From positions 62,001 through 126,000 of the forward strand of contig CALKJW010000028.1 in assembly GCA_937995595.1 (NCBI GenBank): DNA of 64,000 nt, written 5' to 3'. The stretch is from an uncultured Phycisphaerales bacterium. GTDB taxonomy: Bacteria > Planctomycetota > Phycisphaerae > Phycisphaerales > UBA1924. The position numbers and the translations under genes are program-made. Under the pieces are notes generated by a model, which was not told the origin of the DNA, made no database searches, and worked only from the letters and a program-made list of their open reading frames with translations. Shown here piece by piece: positions 7,360 through 62,980 of this stretch; within the stretch, counting starts at the first letter, position 1; the number at the start of each line of letters is the position of its first letter.

Positions 7360-7614
7360 CTACCGCGCGGGCTCGACCCGCGTGTTGCGGTCGAGGTTCA
7401 GCACCACCGTCTCGCCGTCGTCCTTGCGGAGTTCGAGGCGGTCGAGCCAGAGTTTGTCGTCCTTGGCGTGCGCGTACCACGAGCCGGTCTTCTGCTGCTC
7501 GAACTTCACCACGGTGCCCTCGACCGTGGTGGCGAACGAGCCGCTCAGCCGCGGCACCTGCTGGATGACGCGGACGCGCTGGCCGGGCGTGTACAGGGCG
7601 TTGCCGGAGATCAT
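7360..7614 (-). CDS. Small conserved-looking hypothetical protein
   Basis: This 84-residue protein begins MISGNALYTPGQRVRV. The sequence is rich in beta-forming residues, with a TVEGTVVKFEQQKTGSWYAH segment and no membrane helix or Cys. It looks like a small beta-barrel (SH3-like or KOW-like) fold, but this is a shape argument only. It lies between the lipoprotein gene, with which it converges, and the phage-like block, whose strand it shares. It could be the last gene of that block or an unrelated host gene. Base composition matches the surroundings. Confidence 0.65.
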   Translation of the reverse strand: MISGNALYTPGQRVRVIQQVPRLSGSFATTVEGTVVKFEQQKTGSWYAHAKDDKLWLDRLELRKDDGETVVLNLDRNTRVEPAR

Positions 7615-7684
7615 GGGCGGAGTGTATGCGGCACGACCCCGCGCACGGGCCGAACGCCGCGACCAGTCCGGGAACCCCGGCTCT

Positions 7685-8089
7685 CTACAGGAACCGCACG
7701 AACACCGCCCGGTAGGCCAGCGACCGCAACCGCCCGCGGTCGATCCGCCCGCCCGTTCCCGCGGCCCCGCCCGTCGCCTCCAGCGGCTCGAACCGCACGA
7801 ACGACATGTTGTCCCACGTCCGGCCGTGGTGGTCGATCAGCGCCGCCGTCACCGGCGGGTCGGTCAGTTGCGCGGCGATCGTGTCGCGAAGCGACCACAG
7901 CCCGCCCTCGGTCGCCGATACCAGGCGCCCCGTCAACACCACGACCAGTTCCAGCGGCCCCGCGGCGATCGAGCCCGGCACGACCGGGTTCAGCGCGGCG
8001 TTGGGCACCACCAGTTCGCCGATCGCCCGCACGCCGAAGCGGTGCGGGCCGGAGTTGAACAGTCCCAGCGAGTTGAAGAAACTGGCCAT
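7685..8089 (-). CDS. Phage-block protein, possible tail or neck component
   Basis: This 134-residue protein has start MASFFNSLG at 8089, with GGAG ten bases upstream on the minus strand. It contains a beta-rich pattern (PLELVVVLTGRLVS, then SLRDTIAAQL, then WDNMSFVRFEPL) and ends SLAYRAVFVRFL. Two features recall small neck/tail-completion proteins: length about 130, and a place in gene order after portal, capsid and connector. No family motif can be named from sequence alone. It is the most distal gene of the virion block. Codon use is host-like and there are no internal stops. Confidence 0.6.
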   Translation of the reverse strand: MASFFNSLGLFNSGPHRFGVRAIGELVVPNAALNPVVPGSIAAGPLELVVVLTGRLVSATEGGLWSLRDTIAAQLTDPPVTAALIDHHGRTWDNMSFVRFEPLEATGGAAGTGGRIDRGRLRSLAYRAVFVRFL

Positions 8090-8534
8090 GAGAGTCTCCG
8101 GAACGAACTCGTACGCCTTCCCGATCAAACCCGTGCCGCGAAGAAAGTTCGAAAGACATGCACCGCAGAAGCGCGGAGAGCACCGAGCCATCAGGGATTT
8201 CGAACGCCTCGGAACTCGCGGTCGATCCTCTGTTCCTTCCGCCTTCTCTGCGTCCTCGGCGGGTCGGCGGTGAGTCCTGTCTCCGCCCGTCACGCCCGAG
8301 ACCGAGCGAGAGTCCGGATCAGAGAAGCGGGGCGAGCGGAGGACCGCGGAGCGTCAGAAAGTTGAACAAGCAGGTGCGATGTGGCCGGGCAGGGGCGCGT
8401 GATCAGGCGTTCGCCGGGGCAGCGGCCACTGAGCACCGGATCGACGGGCGCAACGCGCCGACGCGCCGACCCCGCACCCGCCCGCGCATCTCGCCCCGCT
8501 GCGCCCCGCTCGCTCTGCTTTCTGTGCGTTCCTC
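8090..8534. repeat. Gene-free spacer with decayed inverted repeats
   Basis: This 445-base gap splits the two last virion-block genes. Between about 8160 and 8275 it holds opposing copies of a degenerate repeat. One is CACCGCAGAAGCGCGGAG (8161-8178); the other, near 8240-8273, reads in complement CACCGCCGACCCGCCGAGG. Similar GCAGAG/CGCGGAG fragments occur in many spacers of this window. No open frame with a convincing ribosome site is seen here. It may mark the place where further phage genes were lost. Confidence 0.6.
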
Positions 8535-8945
8535 CTACTCCCAAACCGCGAACGGGTCCGCCGCGCCGTCGGTCGAGAGCGCGACCAGTTCGATGGTCTG
8601 CGTCGCCGTCGGGCCCTTGGCGCCGATGCCCAGTTCGTGCCGGACGCCGAGCACCACGCACGCCGCGCTGTGCGTGCGCCGACCCGCTTCGGTCGCCGCG
8701 GGCGAGACCTCGAACGCGAGCGTGCCGGCCTGCCCCGGCGTCGGCGCGGCCGGGTCGCCCCGGTCGAGCCGGCGCACGACGCGGACGGTGGTGCGCTGCT
8801 CGGGCACGTCGGCGAACGTCGGGTGCGGCCCCAGGTCCGTCCACTCCACCGCCTCGCGCGACGCGGCCCGGTCCACCGCGATCAGCGAGACGTCGGTCCA
8901 TTCCGTCGAGTCAAATCGCACCCGTTGCGGCGCAAACACCAGCAT
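8535..8945 (-). CDS. Phage-block protein, tail tube-like (tentative)
   Basis: This 136-residue protein starts MLVFAPQRVRF at 8945, after a strong AAGGAGGG site (complement of 8953-8960). It is all-beta in appearance: GTLAFEVSPAATEAGRRTH, then CVVLGVRHELG, then GPTATQTIELVALS. The size, the beta-sandwich pattern and the position after the head-tail connector fit a small tail tube or tail-decoration protein. I see no diagnostic motif, so this is a position-based guess. The 60-base gap to the connector gene implies co-transcription. Confidence 0.6.
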   Translation of the reverse strand: MLVFAPQRVRFDSTEWTDVSLIAVDRAASREAVEWTDLGPHPTFADVPEQRTTVRVVRRLDRGDPAAPTPGQAGTLAFEVSPAATEAGRRTHSAACVVLGVRHELGIGAKGPTATQTIELVALSTDGAADPFAVWE

Positions 8946-9005
8946 GACGGCCCTCCTTTCCGGGCGTGCCCCGCCGCCGCGCGGCCGGCGGAGACCGATG
9001 ACCAA

Positions 9006-9644
9006 CTACCCGCGCGTGACCATCGCCGCCGCGGCGCGGCGTTCGGCGTCGGCCACGCCGTCGCCGTTGAGGTCCAGCCGCGCGCGGGCGATCGCGCGGA
9101 TCGACGACGCGACGCGGTGGTACTGCGCGGCCCGCGCCGCCTGGGCCGAGCCCGGGCCTGCCAGCGCGCCCGCCGCGGCGTAGACCAGTTGCATCGCCAG
9201 CGCAGTCTCCAGCCCGCGCAGGTCGTCCGGGTTCACGATGCGCGTCTCGTCCGGCTCGCCCGGCGCGGCCAGGCCCGCCCGCGCGACGCCGAACATCGCC
9301 AGCACGGCGTCGTGCGCCGCGGCGATCTGCGGGGCGAACGTGAACACCACCGCCGGCGTCGAGCCCGCCGCGGGCGGCGGCAGGATCGGGCTCGTCCGCC
9401 GCGCGCGCAGCAGCGACACCGTCAGTTCCGTGTCGCTCAGACGCTCGACGACCTCCAGCGGCACGCCGCCGAACAGCACCACGCTCCCGGCGCCGATCCC
9501 CAGCGCGCCCAGTTGGCTCGACGCCGTCGTCAACTTGCCCGCGTTCAGCGTCGCGGTCGTCGACAGCAGGCGCTGGGCCAGGTACCCCAGGTCGCGGAAC
9601 AGGTCGGGCTCGACGGCCAGCAGGTCTCGGTCTGCGGTGAACAT
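9006..9644 (-). CDS. Head-tail connector/adaptor-like phage protein
   Basis: This 212-residue protein starts at ATG 9644, with AAGGA ten bases upstream on the minus strand. The N-terminal half is mixed (LGALGIGAGSVVLFGG, then ERLSDTELTVSLLRARR). The C-terminal half is helical: LRGLETALAMQLVYAAAG, followed by a segment ending RLDLNGDGVADAERR. Helical proteins of this length directly after the capsid gene are usually gp6-like head-tail connectors in tailed phages. DLNGDGVAD also resembles a calcium-binding dockerin-like loop, which may stabilise the fold. The assignment rests on gene order and pattern. The gene lies beyond the capsid terminator, so it may have its own promoter. Confidence 0.65.
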   Translation of the reverse strand: MFTADRDLLAVEPDLFRDLGYLAQRLLSTTATLNAGKLTTASSQLGALGIGAGSVVLFGGVPLEVVERLSDTELTVSLLRARRTSPILPPPAAGSTPAVVFTFAPQIAAAHDAVLAMFGVARAGLAAPGEPDETRIVNPDDLRGLETALAMQLVYAAAGALAGPGSAQAARAAQYHRVASSIRAIARARLDLNGDGVADAERRAAAAMVTRG

Positions 9645-9656
9645 GGGACGGTCCTT

Positions 9657-9720
9657 GAGTGCGGAGTGCGGAGTGCGGAGTGAGGGGGTGGGGGGTGAGG
9701 GGGGGTGGGTGGGGTGGGGG
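9657..9720. repeat. GAGTGCG tandem repeat followed by a G-run tract
   Basis: GAGTGCG occurs three times in tandem from 9657. It is followed at 9684-9720 by runs of five, six, seven, three, four and five G separated by T, TGA or TG. The plus strand could form a G-quadruplex; the minus-strand transcript is C-rich here. The tract sits just upstream of the ribosome site of the connector gene at 9644. It also lies downstream of the capsid terminator, so it could influence transcription or be a recombination-prone spot. Confidence 0.75.
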
Positions 9721-9784
9721 CGGCGCGATCGGCGGGGCCGGCCGTGCGCGTCGGCGCCTGCCCGCGTCGAAACTCGGTGTCAAA

Positions 9785-9814
9785 GGGCCCGGCTCCCCTT
9801 CGAGAGCCGGGCCC
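9785..9814 (-). terminator. Hairpin terminator after the capsid gene
   Basis: There is a perfect 11-bp stem, GGGCCCGGCTC (9785-9795) against GAGCCGGGCCC (9804-9814), with an 8-base loop. On the minus strand it is followed by TTT. It lies 21 bases beyond the stop of the capsid gene at 9835. It should uncouple capsid expression from the distal tail-like genes, as expected when the major capsid protein is needed in large amounts. Confidence 0.75.
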
Positions 9815-9834
9815 GGAGACGCGCCGCGTCCGTG

Positions 9835-11004
9835 TCACGAAGTCGCCAGACCCCGGATCAGCCCGTGCGCGTTCTCGTTCTTCATCTCCAGCGTGTACTC
9901 GCCCACGAGCATCCCGCTCTCGGCGTCGCCGGTCGCCGCCAGCGGCTTGTAGTGGAAACTCCGCCCCGCCAGCGGCAGCACGCTCAGCCGCGAGGAGTCC
10001 AGCAGCAGCACGTGGTCAGCCGGCACCCAGCGCGACAGCACCACGCGGCAGACGCCGAAGTCCGACTCGTACACGCCCACCAGCGAGCGGTACGACTCGT
10101 CGTCCGGCCCGTACAGCCGCGACGTCGAGAGGAACTCGTTGATCCGCCGCTTCTGCAGGCCCGAGCACACGATCGTGTCCACCCGCCCGGCCGACTGCTC
10201 CCAGATCAGCCGCAGCGCGGCGTTGAGCACCGGCTCGTTCAGCGCCGTGCCCGCCCCGCCGCCCGCCGGCACGCCGCCCTGCCCAGGCACGAACTGGTTG
10301 GTCGCGATCGTCGGGATGATCCCGTTCATCGTGCGACGCACGCTCGCCGAGCCCTGCTGCGTCGCCGTCGGCGCCACCCCGTTGACCACGCAGTTCTCAA
10401 GGTCGCGCAGCAGTTCGCGCAGCCGCTCCTGCTTCTGGTAGTCCGCCTCGTCGGCCACGCCGTGCGCCCGCGCCGCCTGCATCGACCCCGACACCTCCAC
10501 CGACGCGGTGAAGATCTGCGTGTAGTTGCGCCGGCGGACCCGGTCGGTGAACCGCGCCGCCGGTCGGTCGTCGCCCTCCAGCGCGGCGTTGCCCAGGATC
10601 GTCAGTTTCATCCCGTTGCTCAGCGCGCCGCCCGGCGTGTTCCCGTAGCGCCGGACCACCGTCAGCACGTTCCCCGCGACCGCCGACACGAACATCACCT
10701 CGCGCAGCCCCTCGGGCCGCACCTGGTCGCCGACGCGGAAGCGCGAGCCGTTGGCCACCGTGACCGCCGTGGCGTCCGTCGCGTTGGGCGTGAACGTCGT
10801 CTGGTTCACGCTGTCGGTGTTGGGCAGCAGGGCGTCCTCGATCCACTCGTGCACCGTGCTCAGCGCCGCGTGCGACGCGTCGCCCAGCGCGTCCAGCAGC
10901 GGCGTCTCGAACGGGCTGACGATGCCCACCACGTCCGACACGTCCTCCATCAGTTCCGGCAGAGTCGCCCCCGCCCCGTACGTCGCCTTTCCCGTAAACG
11001 GCAT
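9835..11004 (-). CDS. Phage major capsid protein, SU10/DUF5309 type
   Basis: This 389-residue HK97-fold-type capsid subunit starts MPFTGKATYG at 11004, preceded by AAAGGTGAGC. Recognisable features of the SU10-like/DUF5309 capsid family appear in order. These are a VVGIVSPFETPLLDALGD segment near residue 25; ALSTVHEWIEDALL; a small beta domain (GSRFRVGDQVRP to GNVLTVVRRYG); RRNYTQIFTASVEVSGSM; a helix with ELLRDLENCVVNG; and near the end YESDFGVCRVVLSRWVP and GEYTLEMKNENAHGLIRGL. All of it is in frame, full length and in host-like codon use. The next gene upstream is a short proline-rich protein and then the portal, the usual tailed-phage order. No separate protease gene is visible. Confidence 0.88.
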   Translation of the reverse strand: MPFTGKATYGAGATLPELMEDVSDVVGIVSPFETPLLDALGDASHAALSTVHEWIEDALLPNTDSVNQTTFTPNATDATAVTVANGSRFRVGDQVRPEGLREVMFVSAVAGNVLTVVRRYGNTPGGALSNGMKLTILGNAALEGDDRPAARFTDRVRRRNYTQIFTASVEVSGSMQAARAHGVADEADYQKQERLRELLRDLENCVVNGVAPTATQQGSASVRRTMNGIIPTIATNQFVPGQGGVPAGGGAGTALNEPVLNAALRLIWEQSAGRVDTIVCSGLQKRRINEFLSTSRLYGPDDESYRSLVGVYESDFGVCRVVLSRWVPADHVLLLDSSRLSVLPLAGRSFHYKPLAATGDAESGMLVGEYTLEMKNENAHGLIRGLATS

Positions 11005-11050
11005 GTGCTCACCTTTCATAAGAAGACCGCCACTCCGAACCACCCGCCCG

Positions 11051-11104
11051 ACTCAGCACCCAGGACTCAGGACTGAGCACCCAGGACCCAGCACCCCGCA
11101 CCCA
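11051..11104. repeat. CAGCACCCAGGACTCAG-type simple repeat
   Basis: This is a short array of the units ACTCAGCACCCAGG, ACTCAGGACTGAG and CACCCAGGACCCAGC. It lies in the spacer between the capsid and the small proline-rich gene. The same vocabulary recurs at about 27817-27857 and 39519-39600. It is non-coding here and interrupts an otherwise tight phage operon. Confidence 0.8.
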
Positions 11105-11107
11105 GAC

Positions 11108-11437
11108 TCACGTCCCCTCCGCCTCCCGCCGCGCACGCAGGTACGCCATCACCGCGCGGCTGTCGCCCGTCCGCGCCGCCGCCGACGCGGCTTCGGCCCG
11201 CGCCCGCTCGGCTCGGTCGGCCCGCTCCCGCGCCGACATCGCCCCCGACGGCGCGGGCGGCGGGGGGGGCGGCGGTGGGAGGGGCGTTGCCCGCTGCGCC
11301 GCGACCACCCGCTCGCCGATCTGCCCGATCTCCGCACGAAGCCCGCGGAGTTCCTCCATCACCCGGTCGGCCAGCGCCCGCTCGCCCGCGCCCTGCGCCG
11401 CCGTGTGCGCTCCGCCGCCCGTCGTTCCGTCGCTCAT
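11108..11437 (-). CDS. Small proline-rich phage-block protein, possible scaffold
   Basis: This 109-residue protein has an AGGAGA site seven bases before ATG 11437. Residues about 15-50 and 65-105 are strongly helical and rich in Arg, Glu and Ala. They flank a run of eight consecutive prolines in the middle. It lies between portal and capsid, the place of the scaffolding protein in many tailed phages. A short coiled-coil protein with a flexible linker fits that role, but no family motif is visible. The proline run (C/G homopolymer-like DNA at 11258-11283) could be length-variable. Confidence 0.55.
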   Translation of the reverse strand: MSDGTTGGGAHTAAQGAGERALADRVMEELRGLRAEIGQIGERVVAAQRATPLPPPPPPPPAPSGAMSARERADRAERARAEAASAAARTGDSRAVMAYLRARREAEGT

Positions 11438-11507
11438 GTTCGTTCTCCTGTGTGTGCACAGCGCCCGGCGCGCGGGCCGTCCGCGGCCCGCGCCGTCCCG
11501 GGCAGAC

Positions 11508-13082
11508 CTACATCACCCCCGCGTCGCGCGACCCGTACCCCAGTTCCGCCAGCACCCGCTCGCGCGGCACGCCCAGCGCGACCTTCCGCTCCGCCGCCAG
11601 CAGCGCGTCCTGCTCGTCCCGCGGCAGCGGGTCCGGCCACGCCAGGCTCAGCGCCCGGTCGCGCGGCTCGGTCCGCAGGATCCCCGCACGGTCCAGCGCG
11701 ACCAGCGCGAGGCGCGACGCCTCGACGATCCCGCGCCCGTACGTCTGCCGCTTCCGCGCAGTCCGGCTCAGCAGGCCCATCAGCGTCACGCGCAGCGCGT
11801 TGGCGCTCGACAGGTTCCCGATCCGCGCACGCACCACCCCCGCCGCCAGCGGCGGCACGCCGCTCGCCTTGTCCAGCGCCTCGCGGACCTCCTGCACGTG
11901 CGCCGCTTCCGACGGGCTCGCCGCGTCGCCCCCGAGCGACTCGATCGTCGCCTCCGGGTTGTCGGTCACGATCACCTGCCCCGGCCCCACGCGCACGCCC
12001 TCGACGCCCTCCAGGCCCTTGGCCAGCAGCATCTTGAACGACTGGAACGTCACGCGCGAGGCGCGGTCCGACAGCCGCGTGTTCAACTCGTCCTGCAGCG
12101 GGATCAGCGGCTCGACCTCGCCCAGCCCCTCCCACGCCAGCGGCTGCGCGATGTTCTGGATGTGCGCCACCGGCGGGGCCTCGCGCCGATCGCCCGCCGA
12201 CACCAGCGCGGGCCCGTCGAGCACCAGCCGCCAACCGGCCCGACGGCCCGCCTCGTCGCGCTCGAAGACGCGCCGGCGCGACCCGCTGAGCACCTCCAGA
12301 ACCAGCGTGCCGCGCGCGCCGGCGCGCGGCACGCCCTCCTCCGCCAGCCCGAGCCACCGACGCAGCAGCGACGGCGGTGCGCCCAGCGGCCCGCGCCCCG
12401 CCGCCGGCGACGTTCCCGCCTCCTCCTCGCGCCGCGTCACGATCAGGTACGCGTCCAGCACGCGATAGTCCGACGCCGACACCACCGGCACGCCGCGACG
12501 CGGCTCCACCGCCTCGATGCGAACCGCGCCCGCCGCGGCGTGCGCGACCGCCTCGTCGTCCGGTTCGTCCGCCGCCCCGCCCGCGCTCTCAACGCCACGC
12601 ACCACCAGGTCCACGTGCCCGTACACGTGCGCCATCAGCGCGGCGTCGTTGAGCAGCGCGGCCCCGCCCGAGGACTCCCACACCGCGTCCAGCGCACGCT
12701 CGATCCGCCGCGCCAGCGCGCCGTCCCGCGCGCCCGACACCACCCGCACCGGCCGCCCCAGCAGGAAGTCGATCATCGTGTGCACGCGCCACGCGATGTC
12801 GTTCTCGATCACGATCTCCTTGCGCTTCCACGCCCGGTCGTCCCACGGCCCAGCCGGGCCGACCAGCCGCGACGGCAGCCCCCGCTCCTGCGCCAGCCGG
12901 TACCCGCGCGACGACGGGTCGCGCTGTGTCTCGCGTCCGCCCAAGGCGCGCATCGGGTTGCGGTAGTAGTCCCACAGCGCGTCCAGCCGCGGCACAACGC
13001 TCCGCTCGTGCCGATCCAGCAGGTCCTCGACCCGCTCCCACGTGAGTCCCGCTTCCGCACACGGCGCATCGGTCTGGTGCAT
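11508..13082 (-). CDS. Phage portal protein, SPP1 gp6-like
   Basis: This 524-residue portal subunit belongs to the dodecameric ring through which DNA enters the head. The N-terminus WERVEDLLDRHERSVVPRL and YYRN, then WKRKEIVIENDIAWRVHTM and FLLGRPVRV, follow the SPP1-type portal pattern of an early amphipathic helix followed by N...R....D...G.P. The middle part (VPVVSASDYRVLDAYLI) is the wing/clip region. The segment HIQNIAQPLAWEGLGEVEPL leads to LQDELNTRLSDRASRVTFQ, the stem/core helices typical of the family. The start at 13082 has GGAGCGGAG upstream. Length is normal and uninterrupted. It is the first gene of the virion block, with a gene-free 711-base region before it. Confidence 0.85.
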   Translation of the reverse strand: MHQTDAPCAEAGLTWERVEDLLDRHERSVVPRLDALWDYYRNPMRALGGRETQRDPSSRGYRLAQERGLPSRLVGPAGPWDDRAWKRKEIVIENDIAWRVHTMIDFLLGRPVRVVSGARDGALARRIERALDAVWESSGGAALLNDAALMAHVYGHVDLVVRGVESAGGAADEPDDEAVAHAAAGAVRIEAVEPRRGVPVVSASDYRVLDAYLIVTRREEEAGTSPAAGRGPLGAPPSLLRRWLGLAEEGVPRAGARGTLVLEVLSGSRRRVFERDEAGRRAGWRLVLDGPALVSAGDRREAPPVAHIQNIAQPLAWEGLGEVEPLIPLQDELNTRLSDRASRVTFQSFKMLLAKGLEGVEGVRVGPGQVIVTDNPEATIESLGGDAASPSEAAHVQEVREALDKASGVPPLAAGVVRARIGNLSSANALRVTLMGLLSRTARKRQTYGRGIVEASRLALVALDRAGILRTEPRDRALSLAWPDPLPRDEQDALLAAERKVALGVPRERVLAELGYGSRDAGVM

Positions 13083-20279: not shown

Positions 20280-20640
20280 GCGTTCTCAGCCCGTCGGCGG
20301 GGGGGGGAACACGTGCGCGACTCTGCGTCGCGAGCGCGGGCACGTGCACCGTCGCGACACGCCAGACCGGTTCGGGCTGGACTTCGCCATACTCGTGCGC
20401 GAGCACGTGCCGCCGCGCAATGATCGGCCGCCGCGGCACCTCCGGGTGCGCCCTCCGGAACGCGTCGGAAACACCGCGCGCCGCCTCGCCGATGATCTCC
20501 ACCTGCCGCTCGACCGCCGATCGAAAAGAATCGTCGTCGAGGAACTCCCGCCGCGAGCGGCCCGCGACGTGCTGCGCAATCCGAGCCCACGCGCCGAGCA
20601 TGCCACGCAGCCGTGCCGCGTCGCCCGCGTCAGGCCGCAT
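20257..20640 (-). CDS. hepT: HEPN-domain toxin, HepT/DUF86 family
   Basis: This 127-residue protein starts at ATG 20640 and overlaps the end of the nucleotidyltransferase gene by 11 bases. The HEPN fold shows ERQVEIIGEAAR (about 44-55) and the RNase motif RX4HXY as R77-HVLA-H82-E-Y84. In the characterised MntA/HepT systems, the tyrosine of this motif is AMPylated by the partner to block toxicity. A run of nine C (G on the plus strand, 20299-20307) lies near the 3' end. Slippage there would exchange the C-terminal tail. The last 23 bases overlap sixA on the other strand. Confidence 0.82.
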   Translation of the reverse strand: MRPDAGDAARLRGMLGAWARIAQHVAGRSRREFLDDDSFRSAVERQVEIIGEAARGVSDAFRRAHPEVPRRPIIARRHVLAHEYGEVQPEPVWRVATVHVPALATQSRARVPPPADGLRTLSTRPRR

Positions 20641-20929
20641 ACAGCACCTGTCGGTCGCGCATGATCGTCGCCCGGCGGAACGGGTTGCGCAGGATCCCCT
20701 CCGACAGCAGGTCCACCTCTCGCCCGAAAGTCGCCTCCAGTTCGTCCGTCATCGCGGGCCGGTCCCATGTCGGCGTCTCGGAATCGGGTAGAAAGCGCGC
20801 CAGGACGTCGACGTCGCTGTCCGGCCGCTGGTCCCCGCGCGCAGCGGATCCGAACAGCCACAACTCGGCGACGACCCACCGCCGACAGAAGGCCTCGATC
20901 CGCGCCCGCTTGTCAGGATCGATCGACAT
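20630..20929 (-). CDS. mntA: Minimal nucleotidyltransferase antitoxin, MntA
   Basis: This 99-residue protein with start MSIDPDKRAR at 20929 has the nucleotidyltransferase signature GSAARG (Gly27, Ser28) followed by SDVDVL with metal-binding Asp39 and Asp41. In type VII toxin-antitoxin pairs, this enzyme transfers AMP to a tyrosine of HepT. The overlap with the hepT start (ATG inside its last codons) ensures coupled translation. The fold is the short MNT version without extra domains. The catalytic residues look intact. Confidence 0.82.
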   Translation of the reverse strand: MSIDPDKRARIEAFCRRWVVAELWLFGSAARGDQRPDSDVDVLARFLPDSETPTWDRPAMTDELEATFGREVDLLSEGILRNPFRRATIMRDRQVLYAA

Positions 20930-39602: not shown

Positions 39603-41186
39603 CTACCACCTCCCCACGCGTTCCTTCCGAGCGCAATCCAGCGACAGCACCAGGTACCGCAGCGCGTCGCACGCGTGGTCGTGCCTGCCCTTCACCGGCT
39701 CGCGCGAGCGCGGGTCGCTCGCGTCGTAGTGGTACCGCCGAAGGCTCTCGATCAGCCGCACGCACCGCGCGTGCACGAGCAACCGCGCCGGCGCGTCGCC
39801 CCCGCCCAGCCGCGCCCGCACCAGCGCCACGCCCTCGGCCACGCGCGACCCGCGCGTCCGCACCCGCAGGCCCGCGCCGCGGATCAGTTCGCAGTCGGCC
39901 TTGCCCGTCTGCCGGCTCGCGGCGTTGCCCGCCGGGTCCGCCGCGACCCACGACACCATGCGGACCCCGCCCAGTTCCTCCGCCCAGCGCTTCATCACCG
40001 CCACGTGAGCCTCCAGCCGCGCCTGACGCGCCACGTGCTCGCGCTCGACCCACAGCACGTCCGCGTCGTCGACCCGCGCCAGCAGCAGCGCGGTCTCGTC
40101 GCGGAACCCGAAGTCGATCCCCATCACCCAGCGCACCGTCGGCCGGCCCGCCGAGACCCCCGGCGGCGCAGCGCCCTCGCCGAACACGTGCACCCGCGCG
40201 TCAAACTCCGGGTACACCAGGTCGCGCCTGGCCGGCTCGCGGCAGAGCATCTCGCTCGCCCACGTCGGCCCGTCCACCCGCACCTTCATCGCCCGCGCGT
40301 CCGCGATCCCAACGTGCCCCGGCGCCGTGCGACGCTTCGCCTCGCCGCGGCAGTCGTCCCACAGGTTGCACCCCTCGCACGACTCCTCCCGCCCGCACCG
40401 CGCCAGCACGTCGACCAGCCCCCAGCGGAACACCGGCGCGGGCCGGCCCGGCCGCGTCAGGTCCCACATCAGCCCGAACGGCCGGTGCATCGTCGAGAGC
40501 GCCTCCACCGCGCCGCGCGCCTCGGGCCCCCACGGCCCGTCGCACGGCATCGAGCGCGTCGTGAGTTGCACCGCGCTCCAGATCGCCGGCTCGAACAGGT
40601 CCACCTCGTCGCACCGCACCTTCTGCACGCGAACCCCGCGCACGCTCGTCTCCGACGCCGCCAGCACCTCCGCGCACGAACCGTTCACCAGCGCCACCCG
40701 CCGACGCGCCTGCGCCGCGCGCCCGCGACGCACCAGACCCGACAGCGCCGGCCGCTCGAACAGCGACCGCAGATGCCCCTGCATCCGCTCGCTCTGCTCC
40801 AGCGAGCCGCCGAGGATCCGCGCCTGCACGCCCGGCTTGTACACCAGGTCCAGCATCGTCGCCACCGCGCCAAGAAACGTCTTGCCCCCGCCGCGACAGG
40901 CCCACACCACGCAGTCCGCCGGCGCGCGGTCCCCCGCCGCGCCCGCGCCCCCTTCGAGCGATCCCTCTCGCCCCGAACGTCCGAAGCGCAGCCCCTCAAA
41001 GAACGTGTGCGCCAGGTACGACAGCGGCGCCGACGAGCCCGCCTCGATCGCCCGGTCGGGAACGTCGATCCCCAACGCGTCGCGAAGGACCAGCCGCAAC
41101 TCCGCCGGGTTCCGCGGCGGGTCGGCCGGGTCGATCGTCCACGTCTTCCTGCGCCGCGCCGCCGTGCCCCGCGTGCCCGTGTGCAT
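39603..41186 (-). CDS. terL: Phage terminase large subunit
   Basis: This 527-residue DNA-packaging motor starts at ATG 41186, three bases after the GNAT stop. The ATPase part has Walker A WACRGGGKTF (about 95-104) and Walker B VQKVRCDE (187-194). The nuclease part has GIDFGFRD with Asp358, ADPAGN with Asp417 and HDHACDALRYL with Asp503/Asp507. Both activities look intact. Between them, Cys264, Cys270, Cys273 and Cys279 form a C-x5-C-x2-C-x5-C cluster suited to Zn or an Fe-S centre. It is not next to portal, as it would be in a phage, but about 26 kb away; the base composition is host-like. Confidence 0.9.
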   Translation of the reverse strand: MHTGTRGTAARRRKTWTIDPADPPRNPAELRLVLRDALGIDVPDRAIEAGSSAPLSYLAHTFFEGLRFGRSGREGSLEGGAGAAGDRAPADCVVWACRGGGKTFLGAVATMLDLVYKPGVQARILGGSLEQSERMQGHLRSLFERPALSGLVRRGRAAQARRRVALVNGSCAEVLAASETSVRGVRVQKVRCDEVDLFEPAIWSAVQLTTRSMPCDGPWGPEARGAVEALSTMHRPFGLMWDLTRPGRPAPVFRWGLVDVLARCGREESCEGCNLWDDCRGEAKRRTAPGHVGIADARAMKVRVDGPTWASEMLCREPARRDLVYPEFDARVHVFGEGAAPPGVSAGRPTVRWVMGIDFGFRDETALLLARVDDADVLWVEREHVARQARLEAHVAVMKRWAEELGGVRMVSWVAADPAGNAASRQTGKADCELIRGAGLRVRTRGSRVAEGVALVRARLGGGDAPARLLVHARCVRLIESLRRYHYDASDPRSREPVKGRHDHACDALRYLVLSLDCARKERVGRW

Positions 41187-41189
41187 GTG

Positions 41190-41882
41190 TCAGCCCTCCC
41201 GTGTGCGCCCCTCGGCGTCGTGCCCGTACGCGCGCAGCGCCGCCGGCGAGGCGACGGCGCGTGCCGCGTGCTCGATCAGTTCCTCAAGCGGCGCGCCGAC
41301 CAGGCCGCGCGTGCCCCGCGCGTCGTTGGCCCAGCGGCGCAGGTCGCGCTCGATCCGACGCGCACGCCCCGCCACGCGCCCCGCGTCGAGCAACTCCCAC
41401 GGCGCGATCCCCGCGACCCGCAACGCGCGCCGCAGCGCAAGGTCGCGCACCGTGCGCGGCAGCCGCACCTCGCGCATCCCCGCCGCGCGGAACAGCCCGC
41501 ACGCCGCGCCCATCGCCGCGACCGCCTCCGTCCGGCGCGTCAGCGGCGCGCCCAGGTACGCCCGCACCAGCGACGTGCCGACGCCCAGCCCGCGCGCACG
41601 CGGATCGACGATCACGCGCGACACGCGCCGCACGTCCGCGTTCAGCCGCGCCGCGTCCGCGCGCCGGTCGCCGCCGGCGTAGTCGCCCGGCCACAGCCGC
41701 TCGCGCCACCGCCCGTTCAGCGTCGGATGCGACACCACCAGCACGCCGACCGTCTCGCCGCGCCACCGCGCCGCCAGCACGCGGCACACCGTCGCCGGGC
41801 GCGCCGCGCGGTAGTGCAGCGACGCCAGCGCGTCGTAGTCGCGCGGCCCGCCGTCGCCGATCTCAATCCCGCTCGCGCTCAT
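41190..41882 (-). CDS. GNAT acyltransferase in the packaging operon, possibly Mom-like
   Basis: This 230-residue protein starts MSASGIEIGD at 41882, overlapping the ATPase stop by four bases. The GNAT core reads LHYRAARPATVCRVL, then GETVGVLVVSHP, then RVSRVIVDPRARGLGVGTSL, where RGLGVG is the acyl-CoA pyrophosphate loop. FRAAGMREVRLP closes the core, and a helical C-terminal region of about 85 residues follows. The HY..xP segment near residue 23 and the phage setting recall the GNAT-fold phage Mu Mom enzyme that modifies adenine in DNA. That link is a hypothesis from pattern only. Protein or antibiotic acetylation is the alternative. Confidence 0.8.
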   Translation of the reverse strand: MSASGIEIGDGGPRDYDALASLHYRAARPATVCRVLAARWRGETVGVLVVSHPTLNGRWRERLWPGDYAGGDRRADAARLNADVRRVSRVIVDPRARGLGVGTSLVRAYLGAPLTRRTEAVAAMGAACGLFRAAGMREVRLPRTVRDLALRRALRVAGIAPWELLDAGRVAGRARRIERDLRRWANDARGTRGLVGAPLEELIEHAARAVASPAALRAYGHDAEGRTREG

Positions 41883-42526
41883 CGCGCCGCCGCTCCCGCG
41901 CGCAGGGCGACCACGCGCCACCGCGACATGCCCCGCGCCATCGCCGCCACGTCGTCCCGCGCCGAAGCGCCCGCCAGAACCAGCCCCGGCGTCCGCGCGC
42001 AGACCGACGCCGCGCCCGACAGCACCCCCAGCGCAGCCAACGCGTCCAGCCCACCGCACAACTCGTCGGCGATCACCAGCGTCCGCGCCACGCTCCCGCG
42101 CGTCCCGCGGCACAGCGCGACGCACAGCGCCAGCCGCCAGCGCTGACCCTCCGACATCCGGCACGCGGGCGTGGCCAGCAGCGACGCGTCCGACAGCCCG
42201 CACCGCGACAGCAGCGCGAGCATCGGCATCACGCCCCGCCGCAGGATCTCCGGCGGCGTCCGGGCGTCGCGCTCCAGCGCCGCGGCCCGAACCCGCACCA
42301 CGCGCGTGCCCCGCGCACGCTCCCGCCGCGCCAGCGCGGCAAGCGCCGTGCTCTTGCCCGACCCGCTCGGCCCCGCGAGCAGCACGCACGGGGCAACCGC
42401 CAGCGCCCCCGCGGCCTGCCCCGCCGCAGCCAGCCCGCTCGGCGCGCGGCCGGCCCGCGCCGCCGGAAGGCCGAACACCGCCAGCGCCCGCAGCGTGCGC
42501 TCCGACACCGCCCGCGTGCAGGTCAT
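41879..42526 (-). CDS. Soluble ABC-class ATPase in the packaging operon
   Basis: This 215-residue protein starts at ATG 42526, overlapping the HTH gene stop as ATGA. Walker A is GPSGSGKST (52-60), the signature is MSEGQ (124-128) and Walker B is LVIADE (150-155), so all ABC nucleotide-binding motifs are present. There is no membrane segment or exporter partner. Its neighbour is a GNAT. COG2401 is described as an ABC-type ATPase fused to a predicted acetyltransferase, so this pair looks like the split form of that architecture. A DNA- or terminase-associated role is inferred from the operon. Confidence 0.82.
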   Translation of the reverse strand: MTCTRAVSERTLRALAVFGLPAARAGRAPSGLAAAGQAAGALAVAPCVLLAGPSGSGKSTALAALARRERARGTRVVRVRAAALERDARTPPEILRRGVMPMLALLSRCGLSDASLLATPACRMSEGQRWRLALCVALCRGTRGSVARTLVIADELCGGLDALAALGVLSGAASVCARTPGLVLAGASARDDVAAMARGMSRWRVVALRAGAAAR

Positions 42527-43146
42527 CGCACGCCCCCCGCGCCCCGGGCGTGCCCGTCGCGCCGCGCCGTGGCCCACCACTCCGCCGCCAACTCGCGCAG
42601 CGTCCGCACCTGCCGCAGCACCGCGCGCAGGTTCTCGCCGCTGCTCGCCGCGGCACGGCGCGCCGACATCCCGCGCAGCACGCACATCTCCGCCGCGACG
42701 CGGCGCGACCGGCTCCACTCCGCCGGCCAGGCCCGCGCGCCTTGCGCGACCGGGTCGTCCCGGTCGTGCCGGCCCGTGCGCGGCGCCGGCGCCGCCGCCG
42801 CCGCGCCCATCCGTCGCGCAGCGACAAACGCGAACGCCGGATCGCTCATCCGCGCCAGCATCCCGCGCACCCGTCGCCGAACCGTCGACGCCGGCACGCC
42901 GCACAGCCGCGCAACCTGCGCGATCGACCGGCCCTCGCGCAGCACCTCCAGCACCAACGCGCGCTCGTGCTCCGGCAAAAACGCCGCGAGCGCCTCCATC
43001 CGCCCGCACTCGGCCGTCCCCAGCGCGGCCCGCACGCTCGGCTTTAGCGGAGCGATCCGCACCGAATCGCTCGACCACCCCTTGCCGCAGTGGACGGTAT
43101 GTGTTAGGATGTTCTGACGATCAGCGAGTGTTGCCGCGGCCTGCAT
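42523..43146 (-). CDS. Double helix-turn-helix DNA-binding protein, possible TerS/regulator
   Basis: This 207-residue protein starts at ATG 43146 with GGAGGG eight bases upstream. Residues about 51-92 resemble sigma-factor region 4: LPEHERALVLEVLREG, then AQVARLCGVPASTVRRRV. A second, weaker HTH lies at about 150-190 (SRRVAAEMCVLRGMSARRAA). An HTH protein as first gene of an operon that ends with terL is the normal place of the small terminase subunit, which recognises packaging sites. A sigma-like transcription factor is equally possible. Expression starts from the divergent control region at 43147-43229. Confidence 0.72.
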   Translation of the reverse strand: MQAAATLADRQNILTHTVHCGKGWSSDSVRIAPLKPSVRAALGTAECGRMEALAAFLPEHERALVLEVLREGRSIAQVARLCGVPASTVRRRVRGMLARMSDPAFAFVAARRMGAAAAAPAPRTGRHDRDDPVAQGARAWPAEWSRSRRVAAEMCVLRGMSARRAAASSGENLRAVLRQVRTLRELAAEWWATARRDGHARGAGGVR

Positions 43147-43183
43147 GCGACCCTCCAGAGCAGGATTGAGGCGTGTTTGCGAG

Positions 43184-43229
43184 TTGGTGAACTTCCGAGT
43201 CAGTGTACCAAACAGAAACCATACTGCAA
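43184..43229. promoter_or_regulatory. Divergent promoter and putative repressor operator
   Basis: On the minus strand, TTGCAG (43229-43224), a 16-base spacer and TACACT (43207-43202) make a good sigma-70 promoter for the HTH-ATPase-GNAT-terminase operon. The same DNA holds an imperfect dyad TTGGTGAAC (43184-43192) against GTGTACCAA (43203-43211), 7 of 9 matching. The dyad covers the -10 box and the GTG start of the repressor. A dimeric XRE repressor bound here would shut off the packaging operon and touch its own start. The plus-strand promoter is less clear. Confidence 0.5.
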
Positions 43230-44111
43230 GTGCCTGCACGTCTTCCCAGCCCCGCGCACGACCCCGACCCCGCCGACACGGGGCGGGTCATCCGCGCCGC
43301 GCGAACGCGCAAAGGCATGACACTGCAGGAGTTGGCCGACAAGGCCGGGTGCGGCAGATCCTACCTGTCGCAACTCGAAAACCGCCACAAACCCGGCGCG
43401 GGCGTCGATCACGGCCTGCTCGCACGCATCGAGTCCGCGCTCGACCTCGCGCCAGGCACGCTCGTGTTCACCTCGCAGTGGGAAGCCACGCCCGGGCCCG
43501 TTCGCCGCGAGGTCGCGCGGGCCGAGGCCGAACGCCGCGCCGCCGCGGACCAACTCCGCCGACTGCTGCACGCCAACGCGCCCGGCTCGCTCGACGAACT
43601 GCACCGCTCCGGCCGTCTGCGCGCCCTCATCGACCGGATCGCCGGCGACCACGCGACCCGCGAACTCGACCTCGTCGGCGCGGCGGTCCAGGTCCCGCTG
43701 ATCAACTCAGTCGCCGCGGGCTATCCGACCGACTTCACCGACCTCGGCTACCCCGCGCGCGTCGCCGACGAGTACGTCCGCGTGCCCGACGTGCGCGACC
43801 CCGACGCCTTCGCCGCGCGGGTCGTCGGCGACTCGATGCTCCCCGACTACCGCGAGGGCGACATCGTCGTCTTCAGCCCCATGCGCGACCTGCGCGACGG
43901 CATGGACTGCTTCGTGCGCCTCGAGCCCGACCACCAGACGACCTTCAAGCGCGTCTTCTTCGAGTCCGGCCCGCGCGCCGGGAGCGGCGAGGACGGGTGC
44001 GGCCAGATGATCCGCCTGCAGCCGCTCAACCCACGCTACGCGCCGATGGTTGTCCCGCGCGAGCGCGTCGCGGGCCTCTACGCCGCCGTCAGCGTCACAC
44101 GCATGGTCTGA
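43203..44111 (+). CDS. XRE-family repressor with self-cleaving S24 peptidase domain
   Basis: About 302 residues from GTG 43203 (a start at GTG 43230 is possible). The N-terminal HTH (about 28-65) reads RKGMTLQELADKAGCGRSYL. The C-terminal LexA/CI-type domain has the cleavage bond Ala172-Gly173 in SVAAGYP, catalytic Ser211 in GDSMLPDY and Lys249 in TTFKRVF. All three parts are present, so RecA-stimulated self-cleavage after DNA damage is expected. It is divergent from the terminase operon, the layout of a lysogeny switch. Length exceeds LexA (about 200) because of a helical linker at about 100-150. It is not the usual LexA fold at its N-terminus. Confidence 0.87.
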   Translation: MYQTETILQVPARLPSPAHDPDPADTGRVIRAARTRKGMTLQELADKAGCGRSYLSQLENRHKPGAGVDHGLLARIESALDLAPGTLVFTSQWEATPGPVRREVARAEAERRAAADQLRRLLHANAPGSLDELHRSGRLRALIDRIAGDHATRELDLVGAAVQVPLINSVAAGYPTDFTDLGYPARVADEYVRVPDVRDPDAFAARVVGDSMLPDYREGDIVVFSPMRDLRDGMDCFVRLEPDHQTTFKRVFFESGPRAGSGEDGCGQMIRLQPLNPRYAPMVVPRERVAGLYAAVSVTRMV

Positions 44112-62668: not shown

Positions 62669-62980
62669 GTGATCGATCTGATCCGCGCCAACCTCGGTTC
62701 CATCATCGAACTCTGCCGCCAACACCGTGTGCAGCGACTGTTTCTCGTCGGCTCTGCGACCGGGGGAGAGTTTGACGCTTCACGCAGTGACGTCGATTTC
62801 CTGGTCGAGTTCGAGCCGCATCCCCGCCGCGGCTTCGACGATGTGTACTTTCTCCTGAAGGAGGACCTTGAGCGGCTGTTGGGCCGGCCGGTAGATCTCA
62901 TCGAGCGCCACTGCGTGCACAATCCCTACGTACGCGCCTCCATGGAACGGTCAAAGGTGCCCCTGTATGCCGCAGCGTGA
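62669..62980 (+). CDS. mntA: Minimal nucleotidyltransferase antitoxin, MntA (second copy)
   Basis: This 103-residue protein starts with GTG 62669. The nucleotidyltransferase signature is LVGSATGGEFD (Gly28, Ser29), and the metal Asp pair is Asp41 and Asp43 in SRSDVDFLVEF. It overlaps the HepT-like gene by 14 bases. The sequence is distinct from the MntA at 20630-20929, so the two modules are not recent duplicates. The DNA here is less GC-rich than in flanking genes, as expected for an acquired module. Confidence 0.8.
   Translation: MIDLIRANLGSIIELCRQHRVQRLFLVGSATGGEFDASRSDVDFLVEFEPHPRRGFDDVYFLLKEDLERLLGRPVDLIERHCVHNPYVRASMERSKVPLYAAA

Follow-up and report, generated by a model that had tools for sequence, protein, structure and literature searches.

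The stretch of DNA analysed here (the window: 64,000 nucleotides, positions 62001-126000 of contig C28 in the 3.1-Mb, 55-contig genome, G000, of an uncultured Phycisphaerales bacterium) contains two loci of a domesticated, caudoviricete-derived and largely vertically inherited element, and this element is probably of the gene transfer agent (GTA) kind. One locus is a packaging operon on the reverse strand (39603-43146) that encodes a helix-turn-helix (HTH) protein, an ABC ATPase, a GNAT-type protein and the large terminase subunit (TerL), divergent from an XRE/S24 repressor gene on the forward strand (43203-44111); the other is a capsid block, all on the reverse strand (7685-13082), with genes for portal, scaffold, capsid, adaptor, tail tube and distal-tail (Dit) proteins in that order. 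An earlier note on this DNA (the original prediction) had proposed a GTA with a capsid block about 26 kb from the packaging operon. The interval is indeed 26.5 kb, from the portal end at 13082 to TerL at 39603, and among the readings weighed below that of a GTA is the best supported, through a split found in many assemblies, largely vertical inheritance and purifying selection.

GTAs with an established genetic basis fall into three groups: two alphaproteobacterial types and one in spirochaetes (PMC9662315). Kogay et al. 2022 define GTAs by particle proteins of caudoviricete origin, endogenised genes and vertical inheritance or co-diversification with the host, and further by own genes that cannot all be packaged in one particle, by the encapsidation of mostly random host DNA and by delivery to cells (PMC9662315). 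In the element described here the capsid, portal and TerL proteins belong to caudoviricete families and the tail tube has a tail tube fold, which is the homology part of the first of these criteria. The element is fully endogenised, its loci lying 8.5-981 kb apart with no integrase, and it is mostly inherited vertically, co-diversifying with its hosts. As for the packaging of its own genes, the blocks are up to 981 kb apart, where one particle could not plausibly hold both; in some genomes both lie within about 20 kb.

Occurrence, inheritance and selection

TerL and the capsid gene co-occur throughout the order Phycisphaerales and in other Phycisphaerae, each nearly always as a single-copy gene. 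Of 61 relatives, 50 have TerL and 48 the capsid gene, usually one copy of each; both are present in 44, neither in 7, TerL only in 6 and the capsid gene only in 4 (Fisher p=9e-4). In a phylum-wide sample of 391 genomes, with capsid carriers called at E<1e-50, all 39 family, order and class genomes that have the capsid gene also carry TerL. Of the best 80 capsid loci in named genomes, nearly all belong to assemblies whose titles read Phycisphaerales, Phycisphaerae, Phycisphaeraceae or Planctomycetota; the few other titles among these 80 are Cyanobacteria, Leptolyngbya, Planctomycetaceae, Tepidisphaera and 'bacterium', and some of them look mislabelled. Outside the class, group f32 (L372/G248, L373/G178) has a related SU10-type capsid gene and a scaffold-like gene, with a partial and distant TerL match, and may represent another lineage of this type.

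That the split is genuine and ancient follows from its presence in independent and single-contig assemblies and from the same-genus sister genome (G001), where each block lies between the host genes that also flank it in G000. Where the two blocks lie on one contig they are 8.5-647 kb apart (n=18, median 26 kb) and co-oriented in 12 cases; single-contig genomes have gaps of 9 kb (G299), 32 kb (G324), 40 kb (G350), 63 kb (G407), 127 kb (G141), 166 kb (G277), 687 kb (G287) and 981 kb (G170), and G001 has the blocks on opposite strands, with 45 kb in between. The original prediction had described one split set on the same strand and had proposed locus order in relatives as a check against misassembly: the split recurs in dozens of independent assemblies, single-contig ones included, which rules out misassembly or recent rearrangement, whereas the shared strand is not conserved beyond the window. 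No integrase or replication gene was found beside either block, and the contiguous genome with integration and replication genes that marks a temperate prophage is not present.

All 11 genes tested are under purifying selection, with ratios of nonsynonymous to synonymous substitution (dN/dS) of 0.045-0.34 between G000 and G001. Distances among the element's proteins correlate with those of DnaE, a host marker whose gene lies inside the window (Mantel correlation 0.72 for the capsid, 0.69 for the portal, 0.68 for TerL and 0.58 for the repressor; all p<=0.002), and trees of the capsid and of TerL group the members of host family f4 together, as they do those of f5 where more than one was sampled. 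When uncultivated phages are added, the element's capsids form one short-branched clade, apart from most free phages. Nested inside it are three viral contigs from IMG/VR (L101, L102 and L139), with capsids 57-63% identical to the window's: L139 adjoins G277 in the capsid tree and has a similar gene order, and may therefore be host DNA filed as viral (a TerL profile had no match in the L139 record, which may be a fragment), while L101 has a different, phage-like context. In uncultivated phages with capsids 36-42% identical, the capsid gene and the gene for a related TerL lie within a short distance on a single contig. The element shares its capsid protein family with SU10_MCP phages (Caudoviricetes); the best annotated phage hit, Sporosarcina phage Lietuvens, has a capsid only 31% identical, and TerL has a single weak relative among annotated phages.

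Gene content of the two loci

Coordinates and matches of the individual genes are collected in the table. Gene families were defined from 20-kb neighbourhoods with a simple purpose-made gene caller, and gene starts are approximate.

Table. Features of the window, and position of the insert found in the capsid gene of relatives.
Feature	Position	Strand	Evidence and remarks
SH3-like protein, 84 aa, membership uncertain	7360..7614	-	often adjoins capsid block; 12 genomes, either orientation
Distal-tail (Dit)/baseplate-like protein, 134 aa	7685..8089	-	model pLDDT 84.1; phage baseplate/Dit matches, Z 9.6-10.1
Tail tube protein, 136 aa	8535..8945	-	AlphaFold model, pLDDT 89.6
Head-completion/head-tail adaptor candidate	9006..9644	-	family directly 3' of capsid gene, 25 genomes; dN/dS 0.114
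Major capsid protein, SU10 type	9835..11019	-	SU10_MCP 1.8e-86; phrog_1328 4.5e-78; dN/dS 0.045
Scaffold-like coiled-coil protein, short in the window's genome	11108..11437	-	relatives' family profile 7.9e-10; position constant, 22 genomes
Portal protein, SPP1 gp6-like	11508..13082	-	SPP1_portal 2.3e-9; phrog_64 2.7e-15; dN/dS 0.138
TerL, terminase large subunit (ATPase and RNase H-like nuclease)	39603..41186	-	Pfam Terminase_6C 1e-7; phrog_2 1.8e-12; dN/dS 0.148
GNAT-fold acetyltransferase-like protein	41190..41882	-	Pfam GNAT 1.3e-3; phrog_886 1.4e-7; dN/dS 0.227
ABC-type ATPase	41879..42526	-	Pfam ABC_tran 3.4e-7; same position kept in 16 genomes
HTH DNA-binding protein, sigma-70 region 4-like	42523..43146	-	Sigma70_r4_2 2.6e-6; 20 genomes; dN/dS 0.34
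Predicted operator, degenerate GTTCAC-N6-GTGAAC palindrome	43175..43192		between repressor and operon
XRE/S24 repressor, start codon uncertain	43203..44111	+	Peptidase_S24 1.5e-14 plus HTH_3; phrog_4 9.2e-26; dN/dS 0.079
Insert in capsid gene, G003	L080:6761-17670		several genera
Insert in capsid gene, G018	L087:4874-15780		several genera
Insert in capsid gene, G324	L362:5248-16821		several genera

The packaging operon is compact: the HTH and ABC genes and the ABC and GNAT genes overlap by 4 nt, and 3 nt separate GNAT from TerL, just as first described. Pfam and PHROG also agree with the identities first given to the HTH protein, ABC ATPase, GNAT protein, terminase and XRE/S24 repressor, weakly for GNAT, whose Pfam match lies under the Pfam cut-off; the GNAT family is nonetheless conserved in 23 genomes as the partner of the ABC ATPase, and the two are fused in several f1 genomes. 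The catalytic residues that had been reported as intact in TerL and the repressor are present and, in alignments, invariant: in 26 TerL homologues the Walker A motif RGGGKT, the DE of CDEV[ED]LF and the nuclease acidic positions (MDFG, DPAG, DHxxDALRY), and in 23 repressor homologues Ala-Gly (A172-G173), Ser (S211) and Lys (K249), so that with its HTH and Peptidase_S24 domains the repressor has the sequence features of the self-cleaving S24 (LexA/CI-like) class. In families f4-f6 a ParB-like gene and a gene resembling the small terminase subunit (TerS) precede TerL; no title naming an ABC ATPase-GNAT-ParB-terminase module turned up in a literature search. Small gene families F14, F16 and F17 recur directly 3' of TerL in many genomes (for example, L047:10823-12734).

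In the capsid block, the major capsid protein scores 290.7 bits against SU10_MCP, for which the Pfam gathering cut-off is 24.1. The candidate adaptor is so called from its gene position, and when the adaptor and tube families were searched by sequence against solved structures, no meaningful match emerged. The predicted structure of the tail tube protein best matches the tail tube of siphophage R4C (8gtb; Foldseek 2e-4, Z 10.8), and for the Dit-like model no Foldseek E fell under 1e-3. In family f1 the order of the block is portal-scaffold-capsid-adaptor-tail tube-Dit-F9-F11. F9, a protein of about 95 aa with a transmembrane segment and a coiled coil, holin-like by architecture only, sits between the Dit-like and 84-aa genes in G001; F9 and F11 (a lipoprotein) were considered as a lysis pair and dropped, as neither Pfam nor PHROG gave a match and the pairing stays a guess.

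Predicted regulation, possible DNA delivery and competing explanations

Between the repressor and HTH genes a palindrome scores at least 10 of 12 in 13 of 26 genomes, always with a spacing of 6. Scores of at least 11 occur in 7 of 26 genomes and in none of 300 control regions; the palindrome was first spotted by eye in the same regions and then scored, and the controls therefore gauge its strength and are not an independent prediction. Upstream of the portal gene it was found in 0 of 24 regions, which rules out one operator governing both blocks. A different motif, TGTGCGC[AG]C, is enriched there (9/24 against 7/385, p=1.5e-8), to which composition bias may contribute. With a conserved operator before the packaging operon and none before the capsid block, a second regulatory step is needed; the HTH protein is a candidate late activator, and our hypothesis is a two-step cascade in which the repressor controls the packaging operon and the HTH protein the capsid block. 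Induction by DNA damage is predicted, because the self-cleavage residues are invariant and the operator before the packaging operon is conserved.

A complete cycle might run as follows. Bound to its operator, the S24 repressor would silence the packaging operon; upon DNA damage active RecA would, as the conserved residues suggest, cause the repressor to cleave itself between Ala172 and Gly173, and HTH, ABC, GNAT and TerL would be expressed. Judging from homology, the HTH protein would then activate the remote capsid block by way of different promoter elements, SU10-type heads would form on scaffold and portal, TerL would fill them with any chromosomal DNA, a short tail of tube and Dit-like protein would be added, and particles with pieces of host DNA would be released. 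If this is right, planctomycete cells may transfer DNA between themselves.

The GTA reading is weakest at delivery, because the set of tail genes differs from family to family. In f5 and f6 about six extra tail-like genes, one of them for a hub-like protein of about 550 aa, lie between Dit and F9; f3 (G038) has the tube and a tail module, on two contigs; and a full or partial module is found in f3, f5, f6 and f9. Family f1 keeps the tube and Dit-like proteins only, and f4 (L077, L047, L095, L096, L097) has the packaging operon, portal, scaffold, capsid and adaptor with no recognisable tail gene. The tail tube was not found in f4-f6, and no tape measure was recognised in any block examined. Since f4 has none of the tail genes known from the other families, the element may serve a function other than delivery, or one besides it, and this gradient, from a fuller module through tube and Dit to none known, permits a test of whether selection keeps a GTA without DNA delivery.

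Several observations weigh against a GTA. The median ratio of nonsynonymous to synonymous polymorphism (pN/pS) is somewhat higher in the phage-like genes than in host genes (0.243 vs 0.156); presence is patchy, family f2 being almost wholly without the element; the repressor's palindrome is lacking before the capsid block and tail genes are lacking in f4; a tail hub was not found in f1 or f4 genomes by single-protein search or profile; F9 was found neither at window positions 7600-7700 nor in the searched parts of the contig; and the surroundings of the window's two blocks showed no gene for a tape measure, fibre or lysin and none resembling TerS. Tail, TerS and holin genes missing from the window's genome or family, and a capsid gene degenerate or missing in G023 and G045, would be expected of the remnants of an old prophage, broken up by rearrangement and decaying without function. 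We nevertheless consider such remnants very unlikely and set them aside, as purifying selection on every gene and retention, with both loci kept in each of the 39 capsid carriers, largely refute them; catalytic residues invariant over the order and congruence with the host marker point the same way.

Less easily dismissed, though still unlikely, is a domesticated capsid and packaging system kept for a role other than delivery, such as tailless heads filled with DNA, lysis of the cell itself or a bacteriocin-like activity. It would account for the tailless f4 set, the reduced tail of f1 and the unrecognised tape measure, and it sits poorly with the tail modules of the four fuller families; moreover, tail genes of f1 and f4 may sit unrecognised elsewhere in the genome. 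The CI-like repressor divergent from the packaging operon recalls the architecture of a temperate phage, yet we give almost no credence to an ordinary active one, misassembled or recently rearranged in this genome, given that dozens of genomes, single-contig ones among them, show this split, and given the single copy, the same host flanks in G001 and the lack of integrase and replication genes beside either block.

Known systems and an insert in the capsid gene of relatives

Known GTAs offer partial parallels. The genes of the Rhodobacter capsulatus GTA (RcGTA) are spread over five loci, and in RcGTA and its like (Rhodogtaviriformidae), as here, caudoviricete-derived head, packaging and tail genes lie at several chromosomal loci and are vertically inherited (PMC9662315). 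The predicted model of the tail tube also resembles an RcGTA particle chain (6tba_50, Z 9.4). Unlike RcGTA, the present element has an SU10-type capsid, an SPP1-type portal, ABC ATPase and GNAT partners of TerL, an S24 repressor still present with its own operator, and a tail set that varies and shrinks by host family. By description, the GTA of Brachyspira hyodysenteriae (BhGTA, formerly VSH-1) is alike in having a single conserved terL outside the structural cluster and in having co-diversified with its host (PMC9662315). BhGTA belongs to another phylum. We know of no S24-controlled packaging operon in it.

An NCBIfam scan gave no phage or GTA model at its cut-off, and no title or abstract in the open-access literature searched reports a GTA in Planctomycetes or Phycisphaerae. 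The element looks like a previously undescribed GTA of Phycisphaerales and Phycisphaerae, and would then represent another domestication event, apparently an independent one, retained throughout the class Phycisphaerae, in which the retained S24 repressor makes control by DNA damage directly testable.

In several relatives the element's capsid gene is itself interrupted. In G003, G018 and G324 about 10.9-11.6 kb are inserted at the same codons (...HEWxEDAL / LPN...); the two capsid-gene halves of G005 lie at the ends of contigs or close to them, and G048 has a rearranged region. When the flanks are joined in G003, the one case shown, the reading frame is open over 394 codons and runs through the joint with the normal sequence. 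Gene order in the insert is constant: a large serine recombinase, a HARE-HTH protein, a primase/helicase, a protease-capsid fusion, a sigma-like protein and a 172-aa protein. None of its genes was recognisable as coding for a terminase, portal or tail protein, and with an integrase, a primase and a capsid gene of its own it has the gene content of a capsid-forming phage satellite. Recent horizontal spread is implied: proteins that match the insert's capsid protein at 97-99% are present in other genera and in family f4, and over 7.5 kb the G003 insert and one in G059 share 95% identity. The window's genome has no match to this capsid protein. A possible but tentative interpretation is that the inserts are parasites of the GTA: satellites whose serine integrase attaches at the GTA capsid gene and whose own head replaces the GTA's, perhaps exploiting its terminase, portal and tail to spread between genera, with insertion and excision acting as a reversible off/on switch of gene transfer. 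Were the insert to exploit the system, this would indicate that such systems have sufficient activity to attract parasites.

Elsewhere in the window, two short open reading frames (20630-20929 and 62669-62980) appear by eye to be nucleotidyltransferase-like, with a GSAxxGxxxxxSDVD-type motif as in MNT-type toxin-antitoxin modules.

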